Shown piece after piece: positions 49,104 to 63,888 of a DNA stretch of 64,000 nucleotides (the stretch's first letter is position 1; each line of letters starts with the position of its first letter). This DNA is from Actinomycetales bacterium (GTDB taxonomy: Bacteria; Actinomycetota; Actinomycetes; Actinomycetales; Actinomycetaceae), in assembly GCA_017882885.1 (NCBI GenBank), contig JADGOQ010000019.1:1-64000 (forward strand), given 5' to 3'. The position numbers and the translations under genes are program-made. Under the pieces are notes generated by a model. That model saw only the letters and a program-made list of their open reading frames with translations. It did not search any database and was not told the DNA's origin.

Positions 49104-50600
49104 TCAGCCCGCGTGGGCGCCTGTGGAGGGTGCGTCGCTGCCCGCCGCTGTGGAAAGCCGCGCCTCCTCGAACGCACCGCGGACCGCGCGGTGCCGCTCC
49201 AGCAGCACCGCCGCCGGTGCCGCGAGTTCGGCGTCCACCGTGGCCGCCAGCGCGGCGCGGACATCGCGCTCGTAGGCGGCCGCCCATGCGGCCCCCACGG
49301 CCGTGCGCGTGCCCCGCGCGGCACCGAGCAGCATGCCCGCGACCCCCACCAGGACGATCGCCGGCCCGATCACCCACGCCACCGGCCAGCCCTGGAGAAT
49401 CCCGGCGACCACGAGCGTCACCGCAGCGAGGGCGCCGGCCACTGCCGCCCAGCCGAAGGCCTCCGCCTTCGGCACGCGAACCTCCGGGAGTGGTACGGAC
49501 GCCACCGCATCCGCCGTCGAACGCAGGAGGGACTCCACACTTGGCAGCGAGGCATCCACCGCCCGGGACCACAGCCGCGGCAGCCCCTGCTTGACCCGCC
49601 CGGCCCACGTGGAACCGATTGCGGCCATCGTGGCCCGTGCGGGCGGTTGCGGCGCCGCGAGCGCGCCACCGACCCACCGGCTCGTCGCCTCCTCGATCGA
49701 TCGCGTGACGGCGCCGATGCCGTTCGCCCGCATGAGCTCGTCGGCGGTGAGGTCGACCACGGCGGCATCCGTGGTCGCCTCCCCGGCGCCGACGTGCGTG
49801 AGCAGTTCCGTGGCGACCGCGGCGATCCCGGCGCGGGCGGTGCGGTGCGCCGTCGACTCCTCCCCCACGGCGGCGCGCAGCAGCGAGTGCACCGCCCCGA
49901 TGCCCTCCCCGGTGAGCGCACAGGTGTGCAGCACCGGCACCTCCCCGAGGCCGTCGGCGGCGAGGAGGCGACGCACGTCGCCGTCCACGATATCGAGCCC
50001 GCGGTCGTCCAGCGTGTCCACCTGGTTGAGTACCACCACCATCGCATCCGCGCGGGAGCGCAGCGCGCGCAGGTAGTTCTCGTGCAGGATGTGGTCCGCG
50101 TACTTCTGGGGGTCCACCACCCAGATGAGGACGTCCACCACCGGGAGCAGCCGGTTGACCTGCGCGGAGTGGTGCTCCTCCACCGAGTCGTGGTCCGGGA
50201 GGTCCAGCAGCACGAGCCCGTCGATCGCCTTCAGGTCCTCGCGCTCGAGCAGGGTGTCGCGGAACATACGCCGGGAAGGCCGCACGCCGAGGAACCCCAT
50301 CAGCTCGTCGGCGCGGCTCCCCCAGGCGCAGGCGCTGGTCTGGCGGGTGGACGGCCGGATGAAGCCCGAGTCCGCGAACGTCGAGCGGGTGATCGCGTTG
50401 AACAGGGACGACTTGCCCGATCCCGTCCCACCCACGAGGGCCACCACCGTGTGGTCGCCTGTCGTCCTGAACCGTGCGAGCACCTCGTCGAGGTCGCGGT
50501 TCGCCCGCTCCGCCGCCGCCGGTTCCAGCTCCGTGCCGGCGGTCTCGATGCCGCGCCGGATCGCGGCCACCCTGAGGTCGAGGTCAGACTGCATCGACAT
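49104..50600 (-). CDS. Dynamin-like/50S-binding-type GTPase with membrane segments (second of pair)
   Basis: A 498-residue GTPase. Residues 50-230 form the G domain: G1 GGTGSGKSSLFNAI near 57-70, G3 LDLPDHDSVEEHHS near 130, G4 NQVDTLDD near 192. Two hydrophobic helices near 385-430 (VAGALAAVTLVVAGILQG and VIGPAIVLVGVAGMLLG) suggest membrane insertion, and the rest is helical. This matches the paired dynamin-family GTPases of actinobacteria, some of which (DynA/DynB of Streptomyces) act at the division septum. Start ATG at 50600 or 50594; it overlaps the upstream GTPase gene by 17 or 11 bases. Confidence 0.82.
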   Translation of the reverse strand: MSMQSDLDLRVAAIRRGIETAGTELEPAAAERANRDLDEVLARFRTTGDHTVVALVGGTGSGKSSLFNAITRSTFADSGFIRPSTRQTSACAWGSRADELMGFLGVRPSRRMFRDTLLEREDLKAIDGLVLLDLPDHDSVEEHHSAQVNRLLPVVDVLIWVVDPQKYADHILHENYLRALRSRADAMVVVLNQVDTLDDRGLDIVDGDVRRLLAADGLGEVPVLHTCALTGEGIGAVHSLLRAAVGEESTAHRTARAGIAAVATELLTHVGAGEATTDAAVVDLTADELMRANGIGAVTRSIEEATSRWVGGALAAPQPPARATMAAIGSTWAGRVKQGLPRLWSRAVDASLPSVESLLRSTADAVASVPLPEVRVPKAEAFGWAAVAGALAAVTLVVAGILQGWPVAWVIGPAIVLVGVAGMLLGAARGTRTAVGAAWAAAYERDVRAALAATVDAELAAPAAVLLERHRAVRGAFEEARLSTAAGSDAPSTGAHAG

Positions 50601-52173
50601 GCCCCTTGAGTTCGGACGCGCGCACCCTCAGCCGCGTTGCGAGGTCGGCGCTCGGGAGAGCCTGCAGCACGGTCAGGTAGGGTCGCGCCGCCCCCTGGAC
50701 CGCGAGCCGCACCTCCCGCACCAGCTCGTCGCGCGCGCGGCCGCAGATCTCCGCGTCCCCGAGGACCTCCCCGGCCGCCGCCGCCGCCCCGGCGATCCCG
50801 GCCGCACCGGCGATGACGAGGTCGAGGGTGCCGGCCGGCCCGAGCAGGTCGGTGGCGCGCCGGGAGAGCTGGATGCCGCTCGCGTCGAGCAGGCCCCCAA
50901 CCCCGTCCCGCCATGTCGCCGTCGCACGGGCAGCCCGCTCCCGGGCGTCGTCGGCGGTGAGCAGCTCGTCGCCGGCGAGGAGATGGCCGGCGCCCGACTC
51001 CTGCCACACCCGCTGGATCGTGGCCGAGGCGTCGCGGATCGCGTCGGAGAGCAGCGTGGTGATGGCGGCGCTCACGTCCTCCGCGAGGAGGCCGACGGCG
51101 GCCGTCCGCCGGTCGCGCTGGCGGCCACGGACACCGGCCCGTGCCCTCCGTTCGTGTTGCACGAGGGGCGCGAGCGCACCGCCCGTCGACGCGAGCGTCA
51201 GCCACCTGGTCGTCGGTGCGCCGACCGCGCAGTCCCCCGCGGCGACGGCGCGCGCCATGTCCTCCTCGGGCCCCCGGGTCGCGTCGTGCGTGGCGTCGCG
51301 AAGGACGCGGGCGGCGTCGGCCTGCGCCGTCAGGCCATCGGCCAGTTCGAGCAGGTTGTCGTGCAGTGAAGTCCACGCTCCCGCCGTCGTCCGCCTGATG
51401 ATCGCGCGCGCCTGGTGGCGGCCGGCGACCGCGACGAGCCAGTCACGGAGCTCGCGCACCGCGGCGGGCGGGAGCGGGCCCTCGTGCGGCGAGGTGTCGG
51501 CGATGAGGAACAGGGGCGCGAACCCGAGACCCATCCTGTCGAGCCGCGTCAGGAGATCGGCGCGGACGGTGGTCCGCGCCGCCGGCGGCACGCGGTTCAG
51601 GACAACGGCCACCTGTAGGCCCCGCCGGTGGGCCCGCACCAGGTTCGCCCACGGCACCTGGTCGCCGTACCGGGCGGCGGACGTCACGAAGATCCAGAGG
51701 TCCGCCGCCTCGAGCAGCCGGCGAGCCATGTCCCGGTTGGACGCTTCGAGGGAGTCCAGGTCCGGGGCGTCGAGCACGACGAGGCCCGGCGGTATGGCGG
51801 CACCGGCGACGGCGTCCGCGAGGTCGCGAAGCGGAACGGCGTGGACGCTCGGGTGGTGGGCGATGACGGCGCGGCGCGTGGTGGGCCGCAGCACCCCGGC
51901 GGCCGAGACCTCACGGCCCACGAGCGAATTGAGGAGCGTGGACTTGCCGACGCCGGTGGAGCCGCCCAGCACGACGACGGCCGGGTTGGCGTCGTCGGCG
52001 AGGCGCGGCAGTAGGTGCGACTTCACCTGCGTGGCGGCCCGCGTGGCAAGGTCGCGCAGGTGGTCCGAGTCCTCCAGCTCGAACGGGAACGAGAGCGTCC
52101 CGACGTCGCGGTGGACGTCGTGCAGCAGGTGGAGGAGGGAGGCTGAGGGCTCTGACCGGCTCGGTTCACTCAT
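50584..52173 (-). CDS. Dynamin-family GTPase (first of pair)
   Basis: A 529-residue GTPase. G1 GGSTGVGKSTLLNSLVG near 70-86, a switch region RPTTRRAVIAH near 97, G3 VLDAPDLDSLEASNRDMA near 132, and a G4 equivalent VVLNRVPPAA near 182. The rest is long, helical and Ala/Arg-rich, with a hydrophobic segment near 460 (LVIAGAAGIAGAAAAAGEVL). The G4 motif NRVP departs from N/TKxD, as is frequent in this family. Overlap with the next gene suggests that both proteins form a hetero-oligomer at the membrane; inference. It lies head-to-head with tRNA-Arg. Confidence 0.82.
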   Translation of the reverse strand: MSEPSRSEPSASLLHLLHDVHRDVGTLSFPFELEDSDHLRDLATRAATQVKSHLLPRLADDANPAVVVLGGSTGVGKSTLLNSLVGREVSAAGVLRPTTRRAVIAHHPSVHAVPLRDLADAVAGAAIPPGLVVLDAPDLDSLEASNRDMARRLLEAADLWIFVTSAARYGDQVPWANLVRAHRRGLQVAVVLNRVPPAARTTVRADLLTRLDRMGLGFAPLFLIADTSPHEGPLPPAAVRELRDWLVAVAGRHQARAIIRRTTAGAWTSLHDNLLELADGLTAQADAARVLRDATHDATRGPEEDMARAVAAGDCAVGAPTTRWLTLASTGGALAPLVQHERRARAGVRGRQRDRRTAAVGLLAEDVSAAITTLLSDAIRDASATIQRVWQESGAGHLLAGDELLTADDARERAARATATWRDGVGGLLDASGIQLSRRATDLLGPAGTLDLVIAGAAGIAGAAAAAGEVLGDAEICGRARDELVREVRLAVQGAARPYLTVLQALPSADLATRLRVRASELKGHVDAV

Positions 52174-54551: not shown

Positions 54552-57500
54552 ATGAACGCTCAGCAGCCCAGGTACCCCGGCATCCCCGACGTGATCAACG
54601 GCAACGGCGCCGTCGCCCACGTCATGAAGCACGTGTGCGGGGGCGTCATCGGCTACCCGATCACGCCGTCGACCGAGATCTCGGAACTGTACGAGGCGGC
54701 CCGCGCCGAGGGCTGCGTCAACGTCTGGGGCAAGCACCCGTTCTTCTTCGAGCCCGAGGGCGAACACTCGGCGCAGAGCGGCGCCCTCGGAGCGGCCCTC
54801 ACGGGCGGGCAATTCATCTCGAACGCCTCGTCCAGCCAGGGGATCCTGTACGCGATGGAGTCCCACTTCGTCACCGTCGGCAAGAAGATCGGCGGCTTCG
54901 TCCTCCAGTGCGCCGCCCGGGTGGTCTCGAAGCACTCCCTCAACGTGATGGCCGGGCACGACGACGTCTACGCCCTGCTGCCCTCCGGCTACACCATCCT
55001 GTTCGGCGCCAACCCGCAGGAGGCGGCCGACCTCGCGGCGATCTCCTACCGCGCCTCCGCGCTCTCGCTGATCCCCGTGGCCAACACCATGGACGGGTTC
55101 TCCACGAGCCACATGATGAGCGAGGCACTCCTTCCGGAGCCGGAGTTGCTTCGCGAGTACCTCGGCGACCCCGCCGGCCGGATCAAGGCGCCCACCGTGG
55201 CGCAGGAACTGCTCTTCGGCGCCAAGGGCAGGGTATTCCAGCTGCAGCAGTACCTGGGCCGCAGGGAGGCGGACTTCACCGAGGCGGACCTCGCGGGCGT
55301 GCTGGAGTTCCTGGACACCCACGGCGACGAGGTGGAGCGCGACAACGCGGGCCTTCTCGTGGACGACACGATCGCCTGGATCCCCGAGAAGCTCCACCGC
55401 CAGTGGCGGCGCCAGTGGGTCAACGCGTTCGAGAAGGGGACCCGCCAGTTGGTCCCCGCCCTCGTGGACCCGCACAACCCCGGCATGACCGGCCCGGTGC
55501 AGAACCAGCCGGACTTCCAGGCCGGTGCGGCCGACCACCGCACGCACTTCGCCGCCGACGTCCCGGCCCTCGTCCGCCGCGCCATGGGCGAGTACTCCGA
55601 ACTCACGGGACGTGACTACTCCCCCGTGCAGACCTACATGTGCGAGGACGCCGACTACGTGATGGTGGGCCTCGGCTCGGTGACGGAGGACGTCGAGGCC
55701 GTGCTCCCGTACCTCCGCAGCCTGGGCATGAAGGTGGGCCTGGCGGCCATCAAGCTGCTCCAGCCCTTCCCGGAATCGGAACTCGCGGCAGCGCTCATGG
55801 GCAAGAAGGCCATCACCGTCCTGGAGCGTTCGGACCAGATGGCGCTGACCGACCTCGTCACCAAGGCGCTGTTCAAGGCCCGCGAGAACGCCAACGGGGA
55901 GCGGTACCCCGGCATCCCGGCAATGGAGTCGTCGCCTGCCGTGACGTCGGCCATCTTCGGCCTCGGGGGCCACGACCTGCAGCCGCGCCACCTGATCGCC
56001 GCCTTCAAGAACATGGAGCACGGGACCGGTTCGCCGCTGGTGTACCTCGGAACCCAGTTCTTCGACGACGACGCCTCCCCCGCGATGGCCGACATCCAGG
56101 CCCGCCTCCGCGCCGCATACCCGGAGACCGAGCTGATGGCGCTCGAGACGGAGCCCAACCCGGTGCTGCTCCCCGCGTCCGCGATGCGGATCCGGTTCCA
56201 CTCGGTCGGCGGCTACGGCACGATCGCGACCGGGAAGCTGCTCACCGACATCCTGGCCGGAGTGCTCGACATGCACTCGAAGTCGGCGCCCAAGTACGGC
56301 TCCGAGAAGAGCGGCGCCGCGACGAACTACTACATCACGCTCAGCCCCGAGCCGGTGAAGATCACCAATGCGGAGCTGGAGGACGTCGAGGTCGTCATCT
56401 CGCCGGACCACAAGGTCTTTGCCCACACCGATCCCCTGAAGGGGCTCGTCGAGGGCGGCACCTTCATGATGCAGACCAACCTCTCCCCCGTGGACGTGTG
56501 GCGTGAGCTGCCCCGCAAGGCGCGCAGGATGATCCGCGCGAAGAAGATCAACTTCTACATCGTGGACGCCTTCGCGGTGGCCAAGCAGCACGCACCCACC
56601 GCCGAGCTCGAGACCCGGATGATGGGCATCGCCTTCATCGGCGCCGTCGCCGCGCATGTCGACCGCGTGGCGGCCGGCGCGTCGCGCGAGGAGATCCTGG
56701 GGAAGGTGCGCCAGCAGATCGTCAAGAAGTTCGGACGCAAGGGCGCCGCTGTCGTCGAAGCCAACATGGCCGTGATCCGCGACGGCGTCGAGGTCACCCG
56801 CCGCGTGGACTACGACTCCGAGGAGATCCTGGCGATCAGCGACGACGTCGCGCCCGTCCGGTTGCGAACCGTTGCGTTGTCGAAGACCATCAGCGCGCAG
56901 GACGGTTGCTCCAGCTGCGCCGGGCTCTTCGACGCCGAATACTACGAGCGGATGGTCGCGAAGCCGTTCCGTGAGGGCACGATCGGCGAGGCGCCGGTCC
57001 TTCCCGGCACCGGTCTGTTCATGCCACCCGGCACTGCCGCCGGCAAGGACAAGGGCCTCTTCCGTCGCACCGTCCCGGTCTTCCAGGCCGACCTCTGCAC
57101 GGGCTGCATGGAATGTGCGCTGGTCTGCCCGGACGCCGCCATCCCGAACACCGTCATCGAGATCGACACCCTGCTGCTGACCGGAATCCGCGAGAGCTAC
57201 GCGGAGGACGTGGACCGGAACCTGCTGCGGGCGCGAGTCCCTGAACTGGCCGGGGCGGTCCGGGCGCTGTACAGGCAGACGAAGGGCGACCGCGCCTTCT
57301 CAGCCCTGGTGTCCGAGGCGGCCGCCGCTCTCGTGGCCGCCGAGCCGGCACTCCGCCACCCCATCGACGCACTCGTCGCGGCGCTCGAGCACTTCCCGGT
57401 GGCGCGCACTCGCGCCTTCTTCGACTCCATGGAGAAGAAGGAGTCCGGTTCGGGCGCCCTCTTCACGGCCACGGTGGACCCGTGGAAGTGCACGGGCTGC

Positions 57501-59558
57501 CTCGAGTGTGTGGACGTCTGTGGACCCAACGCCCTGGTGCCCAGCGAGCAGGACGTCGACCTGCTGGACATGCTCCAGGAGCGTTTCGAGTTCCTCACCG
57601 AGCTGCCGAACACCCCGGAGCGGTACTCCGAGGTCCTCCCCGGGCCCGGCGGCGACCCCAAGAGGATGCTGCTGGACCACGACAACTACTACGCGACGAC
57701 GGGTGGCCACGGCGGCTGCCGCGGGTGCGGTGAGGTCACCTCGATCCGCCTGGTCACCTCGACGAGCCACGCGATCACCGAGAAGCGCCAGCAGCGCCAT
57801 CTGACGGAACTGGAGGACGTCGTCGACCGGCTGACCGACCGGCTCGCCACCATTCCCCCGGAGGAGGCGGACCGCCGCCGCCGGGTAGGCGAGATCCTCG
57901 AGACGCTGGAGAAGCGCCTCTACCTCTACGAGGGTGGACCGACCGGGAGCGGGCCGTCGGGCACGGTCATCGCGAACTCGACCGGCTGCTCGAGTGTCTA
58001 CGCCTCGACGATGCCGTTCAACTCCTACACGGACCCGTGGGTCAACAGCCTCTTCCAGGACGCCCAGCCCCTCGCGAAGGGCCTCTTCGAGGGCATCGCG
58101 GCGCAGGCCGTGGGAGACGTCAAGGCGCTGCGGCTGGCACGCCTGGAACTCAAAGGGGCCTACGACCCCGCGCGGGACGACGAGGCGCTCCGGATGCTCT
58201 CGTGGCAGGAGTTCACCACCGCGGAAATGGACCTGCTCCCGATGATGCTGACGATCGGGGGCGACGGCGCCACCTATGACATCGGCTTCGGCGCACTCTC
58301 CCGCATCCTCACGACCAACACCCCGATCAAGGTGATGGTGCTGAACAGCGGGGCATACTCGAACACCGGCGGCCAGGCCTCCACCGCGAGCTTCACGTCC
58401 CAGGACTCCGACCTCTCCCGGGCGGGCGCCGCACACCACGGCAAGCAGGAGTCCCGGAAGGAGCTGGGGCTCATCGCCTCGTTCCACCCGAACGTGTTCG
58501 TGGTCTCGACCTGCACCGCGTTCCAGGCGCACTTCCTCAAGAACACCCTCGAGTTCCTCAGCGAGCAGCACATGCCGGCCGTGATGGACGTGTACACGCC
58601 GTGCCAGTCCGAGCACGGCGTGGCCGACGACGCCGCGAACCGGCGGGCGCGCATGGCGGTCAAGTCGCGTGTGAACCCGCTGTTCGTGCATGACCCGCGC
58701 CTGGGTGACAACATCCACGATCGGTTCTCGCTGGATGGAAACCCGGAACCGACGAAGACCTGGTCCACCAACAAGCTGGAGTACGTGGACACCTCGGGGA
58801 GCCTGCAGCTCCTCACCACGGTGGTGACCCCAGCGGACTTCGCCCTGGCGGAGACCCGGTTCAAGTCCCAGTTCCGCAAGCTACGCCGGGAGGAGGAGGC
58901 GGCCGCCCTGCCCGTCTACGAGTACATCGAACTGGACGAAGCTGACAAGGCCGGGCACATCCCGTTCGTCCACACCACCGACCCCGACATGCACCTCCTG
59001 AAGATGGTCTGCTCCCCGGAGATGATCGCCCTGGTGGAGGACCGCCGCCGCAACTGGCAGCTGCTCCAGTACCTCGCCGGCCAGGACGTGGACAAGCTCA
59101 CCTCGCTGCACAAGACCCAACTCGCCGAGCTGCAGGCCAGGTACGACGAGGCCACCACCGCGCGCGAGACATCCCTGGACGACATCGCGCGGATGATGGC
59201 GGAGCTGGCCGAGTCCGGCACGATGCCCGCCACCGCACCGCTCGCGGCGGCCGCGGCCACCGTGGCCGTGAGTGCGCCCGCGCAGGCCGCCGCCGCGGTG
59301 GCCACTGCGACGGCGTCGTCGGGACCGCGGCCGGTGGTCTCCCTGGCGGAGGCCGACCAGACCCTGTGCACCGACTGCAAGACGTGCTACCAGGAGATGC
59401 CGGAGATCTTCGAGCCCGTGCGCGTGATCGTCGACGGCGAGGCGCGGACGGTGGCCCGGATCATCCCGGGGGCGCTCGAGCAGCTGCAGGTGACCCCGGA
59501 CGTCGAGGCGCGCATCAAGAAGATCGTGGCCAACTGCGACTCCGAGATCATCCGATGA
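54552..59558 (+). CDS. nifJ: Large pyruvate:ferredoxin (2-oxoacid:acceptor) oxidoreductase, single chain, extended form
   Basis: Oxidatively decarboxylates pyruvate (or a related 2-oxoacid) to the acyl-CoA, passing electrons to ferredoxin-type acceptors. The 1668 residues exceed the usual ~1170-1200. Order: pyrimidine-binding domain with GGVIGYPITPSTEISELYE near 30; a domain II near 370-530; gamma domain with VGGYGTIATGKLL near 553; CTGCMECALVCP near 849; a second cluster CTGCLECVDVCG near 980 (CG, not CP); TPP domain with GGCRGCGEV near 1053 and GDGATYDIGFGALSR near 1236, then NSGAYSNTGGQASTA near 1262; an Ala-rich linker near 1555-1590 and a C-terminal CTDCKTCYQE ferredoxin-like end near 1605. 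ATG 54552 is chosen; an in-frame ATG at 54405 would add a Pro-rich tail not seen in the family. Coupled (ATGA) to the next gene. Confidence 0.92.
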   Translation: MNAQQPRYPGIPDVINGNGAVAHVMKHVCGGVIGYPITPSTEISELYEAARAEGCVNVWGKHPFFFEPEGEHSAQSGALGAALTGGQFISNASSSQGILYAMESHFVTVGKKIGGFVLQCAARVVSKHSLNVMAGHDDVYALLPSGYTILFGANPQEAADLAAISYRASALSLIPVANTMDGFSTSHMMSEALLPEPELLREYLGDPAGRIKAPTVAQELLFGAKGRVFQLQQYLGRREADFTEADLAGVLEFLDTHGDEVERDNAGLLVDDTIAWIPEKLHRQWRRQWVNAFEKGTRQLVPALVDPHNPGMTGPVQNQPDFQAGAADHRTHFAADVPALVRRAMGEYSELTGRDYSPVQTYMCEDADYVMVGLGSVTEDVEAVLPYLRSLGMKVGLAAIKLLQPFPESELAAALMGKKAITVLERSDQMALTDLVTKALFKARENANGERYPGIPAMESSPAVTSAIFGLGGHDLQPRHLIAAFKNMEHGTGSPLVYLGTQFFDDDASPAMADIQARLRAAYPETELMALETEPNPVLLPASAMRIRFHSVGGYGTIATGKLLTDILAGVLDMHSKSAPKYGSEKSGAATNYYITLSPEPVKITNAELEDVEVVISPDHKVFAHTDPLKGLVEGGTFMMQTNLSPVDVWRELPRKARRMIRAKKINFYIVDAFAVAKQHAPTAELETRMMGIAFIGAVAAHVDRVAAGASREEILGKVRQQIVKKFGRKGAAVVEANMAVIRDGVEVTRRVDYDSEEILAISDDVAPVRLRTVALSKTISAQDGCSSCAGLFDAEYYERMVAKPFREGTIGEAPVLPGTGLFMPPGTAAGKDKGLFRRTVPVFQADLCTGCMECALVCPDAAIPNTVIEIDTLLLTGIRESYAEDVDRNLLRARVPELAGAVRALYRQTKGDRAFSALVSEAAAALVAAEPALRHPIDALVAALEHFPVARTRAFFDSMEKKESGSGALFTATVDPWKCTGCLECVDVCGPNALVPSEQDVDLLDMLQERFEFLTELPNTPERYSEVLPGPGGDPKRMLLDHDNYYATTGGHGGCRGCGEVTSIRLVTSTSHAITEKRQQRHLTELEDVVDRLTDRLATIPPEEADRRRRVGEILETLEKRLYLYEGGPTGSGPSGTVIANSTGCSSVYASTMPFNSYTDPWVNSLFQDAQPLAKGLFEGIAAQAVGDVKALRLARLELKGAYDPARDDEALRMLSWQEFTTAEMDLLPMMLTIGGDGATYDIGFGALSRILTTNTPIKVMVLNSGAYSNTGGQASTASFTSQDSDLSRAGAAHHGKQESRKELGLIASFHPNVFVVSTCTAFQAHFLKNTLEFLSEQHMPAVMDVYTPCQSEHGVADDAANRRARMAVKSRVNPLFVHDPRLGDNIHDRFSLDGNPEPTKTWSTNKLEYVDTSGSLQLLTTVVTPADFALAETRFKSQFRKLRREEEAAALPVYEYIELDEADKAGHIPFVHTTDPDMHLLKMVCSPEMIALVEDRRRNWQLLQYLAGQDVDKLTSLHKTQLAELQARYDEATTARETSLDDIARMMAELAESGTMPATAPLAAAAATVAVSAPAQAAAAVATATASSGPRPVVSLAEADQTLCTDCKTCYQEMPEIFEPVRVIVDGEARTVARIIPGALEQLQVTPDVEARIKKIVANCDSEIIR

Positions 59559-62383
59559 GCACCGTGACCGGCGGGGACATCCGCCAGTACCTCAGCGCGC
59601 GGGAGGCGCTCGAGAGCACGAGGCAACAGCTCGAGGAGCTGGAGAAGTCCGAGGCCGTGGGATCGTTCAACTCCCAGCTCGCCGTGCTGCGCCAGCACCT
59701 CGCGAGCAACCCGCGACAGTTCCGCGACATGTTCATCAGCTCCGGGATGGGCGCGGTGGCCGCGGAGTTCCAGAAGGACGAACTCGGTGCCGAGTTCACC
59801 CGCACCCTGTGGGACATGCTGGTGCGGGACGACGACGGTTCCACCGTGGTGATGAGGTTCCTCTGGGACCTGCCGCTGCGCCTGAAGCGCAAGTTCATCC
59901 GCGCGCTCGACGCCCACATGACCGAGCGGTACCCGATGTTCGCGGGCCTGTCGGAGGCCTGGCCGGCGGGGAACAACATCCGGCCGTACATCCGCGAACC
60001 CGAGGTGCGCGCGACGGACTTCGAGCTCGTCAACCAGGGCTACCTGGGCTACCGGAGCATCGGCTACAGCCAGCGGGAGGTGGACCTGTTCGTCTGGCTC
60101 GAGGCGTTGCGCGACAAGCAGTGCGCCGACAGCCCGTGCGAACTCGGTGTCCTTCTCGAGGGCCGGAAGGAGCGCAAGGGCGGCTGCCCGGTGCAGATCC
60201 ACATCCCCTCGATGCTCGACCTGCTGGGCAAGGGCAAGTTCCGGGAGGCCCTGGAACTCCTCGAGGGCTGCAACCCCCTCCCGAACGTGACCGGGCGGGT
60301 CTGCCCCCAGGAGGTGCAGTGCCAGGGCGTGTGCGCCCACCTCAAGCGGCCGATCGAGATCGGCCAGCTGGAGTGGTTCCTGCCCCAGCGGGAGAAGGCC
60401 GTCGAGCCCGACTCGATCGTGGCCCGGTACGGCGGGCGCCCGGACCCCTGGCGCAAGGCCGCGAAGCCCCCGATCGCCATTGTGGGTTCCGGTCCCTCGG
60501 GCCTGATCAACGCGTTCCTCCTCGCGGCGGAGGGCTTCCCCGTCACCGTGTTCGAGGCCTTCCATGAGCTCGGCGGCGTCCTCCGGTACGGCATCCCCGA
60601 GTTCCGGCTGCCCAACGAGCTCATCGACGACGTCGTCGCCAAGATCAGGCTGCTCGGCGGCCGGTTCGTCACGAACTTCGTGGTGGGCAAGACCGCCAGC
60701 CTCCAGGACCTGCGCGATGCCGGCTTCTGGCGCATCTTCGTGGGCAGCGGCGCGGGCCTCCCCCAGTTCATGAACGTGCCCGGGGAACACCTGCTCAACG
60801 TCATGTCCGCGAACGAGTTCCTCACCCGCGTGAACCTGATGCAGGCGCGGCGGGAGGACTACGACACCCCACTGCCGGAGGTGCGCGGCAAGCGCATCAT
60901 GGTCGTCGGCGGCGGCAACACCGCCATGGATGCGGCCCGAACCGCCCACCGCCTCGGGGGTCGCGTCACCATCGCGTACCGCCGCACGCAGAGCGAGATG
61001 CCTGCCCGGGTGGAGGAGCTGCACCACGCACTCGAGGAGGGCATCGAGCTGGCGGTGCTCCGCGCCCCCAGCGAGTTCGTGGGCGACGACAGAACGCACT
61101 TCGTCAAGGCGGCCGTGCTCGACATCATGCAACTCGGGGAGCCGGACGCGTCCGGACGTCGCCGCCCGGTCGCAACCGGGGAGAAGCAGACCGTGCGCAC
61201 CGACCTCGTGATCATGGCGCTCGGCAACGCGTCGAACCCGATCATCAAGGACTCGCAGCCGGACCTCGAGACCACCAAGTGGGGGAACATCGCCGTCCGC
61301 GAGGGCTCCCAGGAGACCTCCCTCGAGGGCGTCTTCAGCGGTGGCGACGCCGCCCGCGGCGGTTCCACGGCGATCCGCGCCGCGGGCGACGGACAGGCGG
61401 CCGCGCGTGAGATCGCGAAGGCGGCCACGCTGGACGCGGACGATGTCCGGGCGCGTGTGCAGGCCGCCAATGCCTATTCGAAGCTCGCCGCCGCCGAGGC
61501 GCGCATCCTCGGGAAGGTCGAGCTCGCCGGCGGGATCGTCGAGTTCACGGTGTACGCCCCGATGGTGGCGAAGGCGGCGCGCGCCGGTCAGTTCGTCCGC
61601 GTGCTCGGCTGGCCCAAGGGCGAGCTCATCCCGCTGACGCTGGCGGACTGGGATGCCGCGGCGGGCACGATCACGCTGGTGATCCAGGGCATGGGTACCA
61701 GCTCGATCGAGATGAATCGCATGCGGGTCGGGGACTCCTTCGCGGGGATCGCGGGTCCGCTCGGCCTGCCGAGCGTGCTGCACCGCTACGGCCCCGACCA
61801 GACGGTGGTGTTCACCGCGGGCGGCGTCGGGCTCCCCCCGGTGTACCCGATCGCGCGGGAGCACCTCCGCCGCGGCAACCACGTCACCCTGATCTCGGGT
61901 TTCCGCACGGAGTCCCTGCAGTTCTGGACCGGCGAGGCGGAGCGACTCGGCTTGCTCAAGGCCGAGTTCGGGGACCAGCTCGACGTGGTCCTCACCAGCG
62001 ACGATGGCAGCTTCGGCATCAAGGGCTTTGTGACGACGCCGCTTGAGGCGATGCTGGAGGCCAACAGGCGAGGCGAAGGCCGGCAGGTGGCCGAGGTCGT
62101 GACGATCGGACCGCCGCTCATGATGCGGGCGGTCACCACCCTGACGCGGGGCTACGGCGTCCACACCGTGGCGAGTCTCAACTCGATCATGGTGGACGCC
62201 ACCGGGATGTGCGGGGCCTGCATGGTGCCGGTCACCGTCGACGGCAAGCTCGTGCGCAAGCACGCCTGCATCGACGGCCCGGAGATCGACGCCCACATCA
62301 TCGACTGGGACATGTACCTGCCGCGGTTCACGCAGTTCCGCACCCAGGAACAGCGCGCGATGGTGAGCCACGACCTCACCTGA
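59555..62383 (+). CDS. Fused NfnB-NfnA-like flavoprotein (NADH/NADPH:ferredoxin transhydrogenase type)
   Basis: A 942-residue iron-sulphur flavoprotein. Residues 1-170 are helical with no family recognised. Residues 185-660 are a GltD/NfnB-type unit: Cys residues in QCADSPCELG near 189, GGCPVQIHIP near 209 and GCNPLPNVTGRVCPQEVQC near 239-257 for [4Fe-4S] clusters; FAD site AIVGSGPSGLINAFLLA near 308; NADPH site VVGGGNTAMDAARTAHRLG near 450. Residues 665-940 are an NfnA/PyrK-like unit: FAD part GQFVRVLGWPKGELIPLTL near 680, NAD part FTAGGVGLPPVYPIA near 750, and a [2Fe-2S] motif MVDATGMCGACMV near 878-890 plus KHACIDGPEIDA. The Asp in MVDATGMCG is the unusual cluster ligand known in NfnA. Couples to PFOR by ATGA. 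Confidence 0.85.
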   Translation: MSTVTGGDIRQYLSAREALESTRQQLEELEKSEAVGSFNSQLAVLRQHLASNPRQFRDMFISSGMGAVAAEFQKDELGAEFTRTLWDMLVRDDDGSTVVMRFLWDLPLRLKRKFIRALDAHMTERYPMFAGLSEAWPAGNNIRPYIREPEVRATDFELVNQGYLGYRSIGYSQREVDLFVWLEALRDKQCADSPCELGVLLEGRKERKGGCPVQIHIPSMLDLLGKGKFREALELLEGCNPLPNVTGRVCPQEVQCQGVCAHLKRPIEIGQLEWFLPQREKAVEPDSIVARYGGRPDPWRKAAKPPIAIVGSGPSGLINAFLLAAEGFPVTVFEAFHELGGVLRYGIPEFRLPNELIDDVVAKIRLLGGRFVTNFVVGKTASLQDLRDAGFWRIFVGSGAGLPQFMNVPGEHLLNVMSANEFLTRVNLMQARREDYDTPLPEVRGKRIMVVGGGNTAMDAARTAHRLGGRVTIAYRRTQSEMPARVEELHHALEEGIELAVLRAPSEFVGDDRTHFVKAAVLDIMQLGEPDASGRRRPVATGEKQTVRTDLVIMALGNASNPIIKDSQPDLETTKWGNIAVREGSQETSLEGVFSGGDAARGGSTAIRAAGDGQAAAREIAKAATLDADDVRARVQAANAYSKLAAAEARILGKVELAGGIVEFTVYAPMVAKAARAGQFVRVLGWPKGELIPLTLADWDAAAGTITLVIQGMGTSSIEMNRMRVGDSFAGIAGPLGLPSVLHRYGPDQTVVFTAGGVGLPPVYPIAREHLRRGNHVTLISGFRTESLQFWTGEAERLGLLKAEFGDQLDVVLTSDDGSFGIKGFVTTPLEAMLEANRRGEGRQVAEVVTIGPPLMMRAVTTLTRGYGVHTVASLNSIMVDATGMCGACMVPVTVDGKLVRKHACIDGPEIDAHIIDWDMYLPRFTQFRTQEQRAMVSHDLT

Positions 62384-62959: not shown

Positions 62960-63673
62960 TCAGCCCTTCCGGATCGTGGCCTCCACTTCCTCGGCGGAGA
63001 TCGGGCGCGTGCAGAAGAACCAGTCCTCGCACTCGATGCCCTCGACAGCGCCCTCCATCCGGTCCTTGGCCACGCCGCAGGAACCCGCGGTGGGCACGAT
63101 GACCCGTTCGCCGGGCCGCCAGTCCGCCGGCAGCGCCACCTCGAACGCGTCAGCGGTCTGCAGGGCCTTGACCACGCGGAGCAGTTCGTCGAAGTTCCGC
63201 CCGACGCTGAGTGGGTAGTAGATGATCGTCCGGATAATGCCCTTGGGGTCGATGAAGAAGACGGCGCGCACGGCCTTCGTCGTGGCCTCGCCCGGCATGA
63301 TCATGCCGTACTTCCGAGCGACATTCATGGTGATGTCCTCGATCAGCGGGAACGTGACCTCCACGTTCTCCATGTCCCGGAACCTGATCTTCTCCTTGAT
63401 GGTCCGCAGCCACGCGATGTGGCTGTAGAGGCCATCAACCGAGAGCCCCACCAACTCGGTGTTGTATGCGAGGAATTCGTCCTGCATCGTCGCAAAGGTC
63501 ATGAATTCGCTCGTGCACACGGGCGTGAAGTCGGCCGGGTGCGAGAAGAGGATCACCCACTTCCCCTCGTAGTCGGCTGGGAAGTTGATCATGCCCTGGG
63601 TCGTGACCGCGGTGAACGCCGGGGCGGCGTCCCCGATACGCGGCATTGCGGGAGCTGCGGCTTCGTCGCTCAT
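62960..63673 (-). CDS. Peroxiredoxin (AhpC/Prx6-like, archaeal long type)
   Basis: Reduces peroxides by a peroxidatic Cys. The 237 residues have the active site FSHPADFTPVCTSEF near 47-61 with Thr and Cys, the Arg of the catalytic set in the VRAVFFIDPKGIIRTII region near 133, GRNFDELLRVVKALQ near 158, and a C-terminal Cys cluster TAGSCGVAKDRMEG and CEDWFFCTRPISAEE near 193-225, as in thermophile-type long peroxiredoxins. ATG at 63673 with GGAAGGAACGAG upstream. A 12-base inverted repeat stands at 63706-63735 in the promoter region. Confidence 0.92.
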   Translation of the reverse strand: MSDEAAAPAMPRIGDAAPAFTAVTTQGMINFPADYEGKWVILFSHPADFTPVCTSEFMTFATMQDEFLAYNTELVGLSVDGLYSHIAWLRTIKEKIRFRDMENVEVTFPLIEDITMNVARKYGMIMPGEATTKAVRAVFFIDPKGIIRTIIYYPLSVGRNFDELLRVVKALQTADAFEVALPADWRPGERVIVPTAGSCGVAKDRMEGAVEGIECEDWFFCTRPISAEEVEATIRKG

Positions 63674-63705
63674 CAGCTCGTTCCTTCCTGTGATGGTTCG
63701 ATGGC

Positions 63706-63735
63706 CGAACGACCGTCCACCTGACGGTTCGTTCG
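63706..63735. promoter_or_regulatory. Inverted repeat upstream of the peroxiredoxin gene (possible operator)
   Basis: CGAACGACCGT (63706-63716) and ACGGTTCGTTCG (63724-63735) form an inverted repeat with one extra base, 33 bp upstream of the peroxiredoxin start. It could bind a redox-responsive regulator; no known consensus was matched. Confidence 0.4.
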
Positions 63736-63888
63736 CCTTCATCGTCTCTCGAACAGCGGCACCGGGAGGCGGGATCGGTGGGGACCGCGTGGGCACGGCC
63801 AACGATGGCAGCGCTCACAGCATTGCCTGCGTCGCTAGTGGCGCGTGTCGTTAGTTCCTAAACGGTTGGGGTTTTGGGATGATGGGGT

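Follow-up and report, generated by a model that had tools for sequence, protein, structure and literature searches.

A long PFOR-like enzyme with a C-terminal ferredoxin domain is paired with a single-chain NfnB-NfnA protein in Actinomycetaceae

Pyruvate:ferredoxin oxidoreductase (PFOR) and the electron-bifurcating flavoenzyme Nfn are normally linked only by diffusible ferredoxin. In an Actinomycetales bacterium, a PFOR-like gene is directly followed by a gene for an Nfn-like protein (contig JADGOQ010000019.1; the window analysed here is the whole stretch of its first 64,000 nucleotides), which raises the question of whether the two products pass electrons to each other within a dedicated complex. 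An earlier note on this DNA, made from the letters and their translations, had proposed such a complex, in which pyruvate oxidation would drive NADP(H)/NAD(H) reduction without free ferredoxin. We compared the two proteins and their genomic surroundings with profiles, solved structures and related genomes.

The two genes and their products

The cassette at 54552-62383 is as the earlier note described it: two genes with an ATGA overlap, products of 1668 and 942 amino acids, and the same coordinates and domain content (Table 1). The first product matches the Pfam families POR_N, POR, PFOR_II, Fer4 and TPP_enzyme_C, and its start codon is consistent with the starts of its homologues. It has the fold and cofactor sites of a PFOR, with TPP domains and 12 cysteines for three [4Fe-4S] clusters, and these cysteines are invariant in the alignment of 18 long PFOR homologues. 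Judged from its sequence it is a divergent PFOR, scoring 390 bits against the TIGR02176 equivalog model (cut-off 911 bits). Because it falls so far below this cut-off, pyruvate is its putative rather than proven substrate, as suggested by alignment to the solved PFOR 6cin. The same genome also encodes canonical PFORs, on two further contigs (1612 and 1376 bits with TIGR02176).

Table 1. Features of the PFOR and NfnB-NfnA genes, in nucleotide positions of the window.
Feature	Position	Strand	Basis or remark
Long PFOR-like 2-oxoacid oxidoreductase, 1668 aa	54552..59558	+	POR_N/POR/PFOR_II/TPP domains, TIGR02176 390 bits
Domain-V-type [4Fe-4S] pair, C849/852/855/859 and C980/983/986/990, long insert between	57096..57521	+	Invariant in 18/18 PFOR homologues
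Ala/Gly/Pro-rich linker, residues about 1545-1599, length varies among homologues	59184..59348	+	Alignment of C-termini
C-terminal single-[4Fe-4S] ferredoxin domain of PFOR, C1606/C1609/C1612/C1662	59349..59555	+	Pfam Fer4_15; PDB 7m1n/7m1o
ATGA stop/start overlap of PFOR gene and fusion gene	59555..59558	+	Suggests translational coupling
NfnB-NfnA single chain, 942 aa, NF009415/PRK12779, Pattern C	59555..62383	+	Pfam, NCBIfam and PDB matches
N-terminal helical domain, residues 1-170	59555..60064	+	Predicted helical
NfnB-like module: distal D187/C190/C195/C260, proximal C211/C250/C256/E273, b-FAD R351, NADP(H) Rossmann with YRR (R476, R477)	60077..61429	+
Asp187 codon, replacing the first Cys of the NfnB RCx2Cx4C motif	60113..60115	+	Asp in 15/15 members
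NfnA/PyrK-like module: FAD and NAD(H) domains, [2Fe-2S] D881/C886/C889/C905, ERxPxT reads ELIPLT	61487..62380	+

The second product carries, in order, the Pfam domains Fer4_20 and Pyr_redox_2 (NfnB-like) and DHODB_Fe-S_bind (NfnA/PyrK-like), and matches the Pyrococcus furiosus chains NfnL (5jca_L, E 5e-108) and NfnS (5jca_S, E 3e-67). AF2 gave a weak model of the whole fusion (pLDDT 61, pTM 0.50); NfnL and NfnS were among the top Foldseek matches for its two modules, and this speaks against a C-terminal module devoid of a flavin or pyridine-nucleotide site, the outcome that the earlier note had named as fatal to its reading.

The joining of NfnB and NfnA in one chain, which that note had contrasted with the usual separate subunits, turned out to be known. 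Single-chain Nfn proteins are common in the A-B order (PRK12778), and the B-A chain has been published as Pattern C (NF009415/PRK12779). The window chain scores 1719 bits with NF009415 (cut-off 1519) over residues 7-940 of 942, and only 718 bits with the A-B model PRK12778 (cut-off 1103). Of the four Nfn patterns distinguished in PMC6405883, Pattern C, with Mobiluncus curtisii as its representative, combines the B-A order with about 200 additional residues; by that definition (B-A order, C-terminal NfnA cofactor domains, about 200 extra residues) the window chain belongs to it. The M. curtisii protein (ADI67453) shares with it the NfnB-NfnA order, a length some 200 amino acids beyond that of other fused Nfn proteins and the C-terminal NfnA cofactor domains, and has a basal position in the tree of Nfn proteins (PMC6085437). 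Pattern C is without biochemical characterization in both papers, and their descriptions of it contain neither the pairing with a PFOR, nor a ferredoxin tail on that PFOR, nor the aspartate described below, nor the restriction of the N-terminal domain; PFOR is listed among the abbreviations of Figure 2 of PMC6405883.

Other fused or paired enzymes share part of this arrangement. Thermotoga maritima NfnAB and P. furiosus NfnI (4ylf, 5jca) have both modules, the FAD and cluster ligands and the b-FAD arginine in common with the window chain, but consist of two subunits, have a four-cysteine distal site, use free ferredoxin as partner and lack the N-terminal domain. The fused Pattern B proteins (PRK12778) show about 45% identity to the window chain in the B module, but have the A-B order, no N-terminal domain and no adjoining PFOR in the loci examined. 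In the pyruvate:NADP+ oxidoreductase (PNO) of Euglena and Cryptosporidium, a PFOR is joined to an NADP+-reducing flavoprotein, as is proposed here, although in PNO the partner is a P450-reductase-like module within one chain and not an Nfn.

Distribution and surroundings of the pair

Among 200 genomes of the window's family, NF009415 was detected above its cut-off in 10, and one further copy is cut by a contig end. Together with six contigs labelled Propionibacteriaceae or Propioniciclava, these make 17 NfnB-NfnA chains of this type (loci L008 and L009 duplicate the contigs G014 and G045 and were counted once), and all 17 examined lie directly behind a long PFOR. The adjacency and co-occurrence that the earlier note had proposed to check are thus strict. 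The long PFORs of several genera share about 56-82% identity with that of the window in full-length comparisons, and the fusions 63-87%. Most relatives share the ATGA overlap; genus g20 instead shows short gaps or a GTG/ATG re-start. Conservation of the pair across several genera is far beyond chance. No conserved third gene was found around it, and therefore the two genes form a unit that has been maintained despite rearranged surroundings.

In the phylum samples, the fusion was detected in one of 397 genomes (E 1e-150) and the long PFOR in one of 297 (E 1e-60), in both cases only the window's own genome, and no B-A chain was found in plasmid records. Relatives of the fusion outside the family in the genome collection are mostly A-B single chains (Pattern B, PRK12778), for which no adjoining PFOR was found. 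A 2615-amino-acid frame that spans both genes in locus L141 was rejected as a PFOR-Nfn fusion, the PFOR being read in another frame.

A different gene set has been described in propionibacteria, where the PFOR gene nifJ1 is transcribed together with an NfnB-like gene and a dihydroorotate-dehydrogenase-like one, its knock-out cripples growth, and a bifurcating complex has been proposed (PMC7650540). The window cassette has a PFOR, an NfnB-like gene and the proposal of a bifurcating complex in common with that cluster, but pairs a long, tail-bearing PFOR with a B-A chain where the nifJ1 cluster has separate NfnB-like and dihydroorotate-dehydrogenase-like genes, a composition that the cassette does not have. 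In a Nitrospirae MAG (L016:741-4612), an 847-amino-acid NfnB-NfnA chain lies directly behind POR beta and gamma genes. This chain has a normal CxxC in NfnB and an N-terminus that differs from those of the window-type fusions. Searching 60 relatives of the L016 genome yielded no similar B-A chain, with matches limited to the NfnB part. L016 is possibly an independent POR-Nfn coupling. Because the propionibacterial gene set differs and L016 adjoins split POR genes, the coupling of PFOR or POR to Nfn seems to have arisen more than once.

Several other genes in the window and its genus were noted in passing. By eye, from the translations, two P-loop GTPase-like genes of 498 and 529 aa, neighbouring and overlapping, lie on the reverse strand at 49104-52173 of the window, and a peroxiredoxin-like gene lies near the cassette at 62960-63802, also on the reverse strand. 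In the window's genus, a canonical PFOR adjoins a separate NfnB-like gene at G000:C114:1-2345 (L147), in the window's own genome, and at G014:C17:3622-8648, partly like the nifJ1 cluster (PMC7650540). A 1063-amino-acid open frame with an NfnB-like domain at 120-509 (L149:3810-7001, G000:C133) shares its contig with aceE, at a distance of about 9 kb.

The ferredoxin tail, the N-terminal domain and the altered cluster site

Beyond the three canonical cluster sites, the PFOR carries a fourth, which the earlier note does not mention. It lies in a C-terminal domain assigned to Pfam Fer4_15 (pattern C1606xxC1609xxC1612...C1662), whose matches in the PDB are the solved single-cluster ferredoxins 7m1n/7m1o (E 4e-5). 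Among the 14 of 200 family genomes with a long PFOR, 11 have both the fusion and the tail and three (G091, G129 and G136) have neither. The same holds in the alignment of 18 long PFORs, where linker and ferredoxin tail are present in all 15 fusion-linked proteins and in none of the three fusion-less ones, which terminate upstream of the linker. No remnant of the tail was found downstream of these three genes, nor was the domain found anywhere in the three genomes. The fusion-less PFORs (loci L139, L144 and L145) are candidates for a return to a free electron carrier.

In the tree of the PFOR core, G091 stands beside G020 within genus g20 (support 97/96) and G129 and G136 fall with the g32 group, all three on long branches. 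Because of these separate positions, and provided that the pair is ancestral, tail and fusion would have been lost jointly at least two times independently. Of the three tail-less genomes, two are MAG-like with many contigs, and the absence of the fusion there depends on their 96-97% completeness. Of all the evidence, the apparent joint loss speaks most strongly for a tail that serves the fusion. The phrase "without free ferredoxin" in the earlier proposal is better put as ferredoxin tethered to the PFOR, the tail tracking the presence of the fusion exactly.

It could be argued that the coupling is functional and not physical, with the PFOR reducing a soluble ferredoxin pool on which the Nfn chain draws, and with the tail as an extra relay cluster. 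This is the usual arrangement for PFOR and Nfn, and several of the genomes also encode canonical PFORs or four-subunit PORs, for which soluble carriers are presumably required. Such a pool, however, gives no reason why tail and fusion should have been lost together, and the ATGA coupling and an N-terminal domain exclusive to the PFOR-linked fusions favour a stable pair; on balance we think a soluble pool unlikely.

That N-terminal domain is restricted to the PFOR-linked fusions, at one place each in 11 of the 200 family genomes. It is predicted to be helical (AF2, pLDDT 73) and has the invariant residues W86, R101, F102, W104, P107, Y126-P-M-F129 and W136-P137. The earlier statement that these ~170 residues belong to no recognizable family is borne out, as no match was obtained in Pfam with 17 members, in the PDB by profile search or with Foldseek from the AF2 model, but needs the correction that a named model, NF009415, covers the whole fusion, this part included. 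Given its occurrence only in these fusions, the domain is plausibly a dock to the PFOR.

The ligands of the chain are also strongly conserved. In all 15 fusion members compared, C190, C195, C211, C250, C256, C260 and E273 are kept, as are R476 and R477 of the NADP site, the b-FAD arginine R351 (R201 in P. furiosus, R187 in T. maritima) and the [2Fe-2S] ligands D881, C886, C889 and C905; the retention of D881, the unusual aspartate ligand of NfnA, had been noticed before. The two [4Fe-4S] sites assigned to NfnB in the earlier note are upheld as to their other ligands, but the distal site is non-canonical, with Asp187 as its first ligand. Position 187 is aspartate in 15 of 15 family members; of 72 other NfnB modules, 71 have cysteine there and one has a gap. 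The window chain therefore departs from the NfnB motif RCx2Cx4Cx3CPV in its leading cysteine and in the last spacing (15 residues instead of 3), and conforms to the second motif, GRVCPQExQCx3C...E. Following the pattern of dihydropyrimidine dehydrogenase (DPD) and Nfn, we take D187, C190, C195 and C260 to hold the distal cluster and C211, C250, C256 and E273 the proximal one. Further substitutions common to all 15 members are R274 to W, R271 to Q and, in the ERxPxT motif of the a-FAD, R691 to L, with T695 kept. The aspartate was also considered as a feature of any B-A chain, which was rejected, as the L016 chain has cysteine.

In Nfn, ferredoxin is predicted to dock near the distal NfnB cluster (PMC6405883). 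The cluster facing the low-potential donor might thus have been altered in the fusion family, a change that would make sense with the family's own PFOR as donor. The changes at D187 and R691 may also mean that bifurcation is altered or lost, and PMC6405883 warns that bifurcation is not recognizable by sequence alone. The pair might then be a non-bifurcating pyruvate:NADP+ (or NAD+) oxidoreductase complex, functionally like the eukaryotic PNO, with an NfnA module that is vestigial or serves another acceptor. Both substitutions are present in all 15 members, P. furiosus NfnII keeps the fold without NAD activity (PMC6405883), and oxidation of quinols by an NfnA-like partner has been proposed in propionibacteria (PMC7650540). 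The invariance of the [2Fe-2S] ligands, the FAD threonine T695 and R351 would nevertheless be unexpected for a vestigial module, and we consider such a non-bifurcating enzyme quite improbable.

Proposed electron path and its meaning

The functional coupling of PFOR and Nfn, the conserved ligands and the strict adjacency and co-occurrence put forward in the earlier note are all supported. We infer that the two proteins probably form a dedicated physical complex in which the tethered ferredoxin of the PFOR feeds a confurcating NfnB-NfnA chain. The PFOR-like enzyme would oxidize pyruvate with CoA and release single electrons via TPP, through its three internal [4Fe-4S] clusters, to the fourth cluster in the C-terminal ferredoxin domain. 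This domain would swing on the Ala/Gly/Pro linker and dock at the Asp-ligated distal cluster of the chain, where free ferredoxin would dock in an ordinary Nfn. From there electrons would pass to the proximal NfnB cluster and on to the b-FAD, where they would be joined by electrons from NADH that enter at the NfnA module and travel by way of the a-FAD and the [2Fe-2S] cluster. The chain would then act as an electron-confurcating Nfn, both branches meeting at the b-FAD to reduce NADP+, with the predicted net reaction pyruvate + CoA + NADH + 2 NADP+ -> acetyl-CoA + CO2 + NAD+ + 2 NADPH.

Nfn can carry out NADPH bifurcation in vitro and PFORs are reversible. The pair might accordingly run in reverse as a pyruvate synthase, with NADPH driving the formation of pyruvate from acetyl-CoA and CO2 via bifurcation. 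Against this, several carriers without detectable aceE would need an oxidative route to acetyl-CoA, and no setting of CO2 fixation was noticed in passing; we regard the reverse direction as very improbable. AceE (PDH) is present in the window's genus and in g22, and was not found in g20 or in three of the four g32 genomes. RnfC was found in none of the 20 carriers tested.

Within the literature searched, the dedicated pair, the co-lost tethered ferredoxin, the Asp-ligated distal cluster and the exclusive N-terminal domain look new. Returning to the dedicated complex, we suggest tentatively that it may represent a class of 2-oxoacid oxidoreductase complexes not described before: a PFOR hard-wired through a covalent ferredoxin to a bifurcating Nfn that has aspartate at its distal cluster and a domain dedicated to docking. 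Such a complex would be a transhydrogenase driven by pyruvate, yielding two NADPH per pyruvate and never releasing the ferredoxin. The fusion-less genomes offer natural controls. If true, this would be an example of a bifurcating enzyme wired to one low-potential donor by a tethered ferredoxin, and would give a function to the basal Pattern C Nfn, for which attention has been called (PMC6085437, PMC6405883). A route to NADPH for actinobacteria without Rnf would be a further implication.
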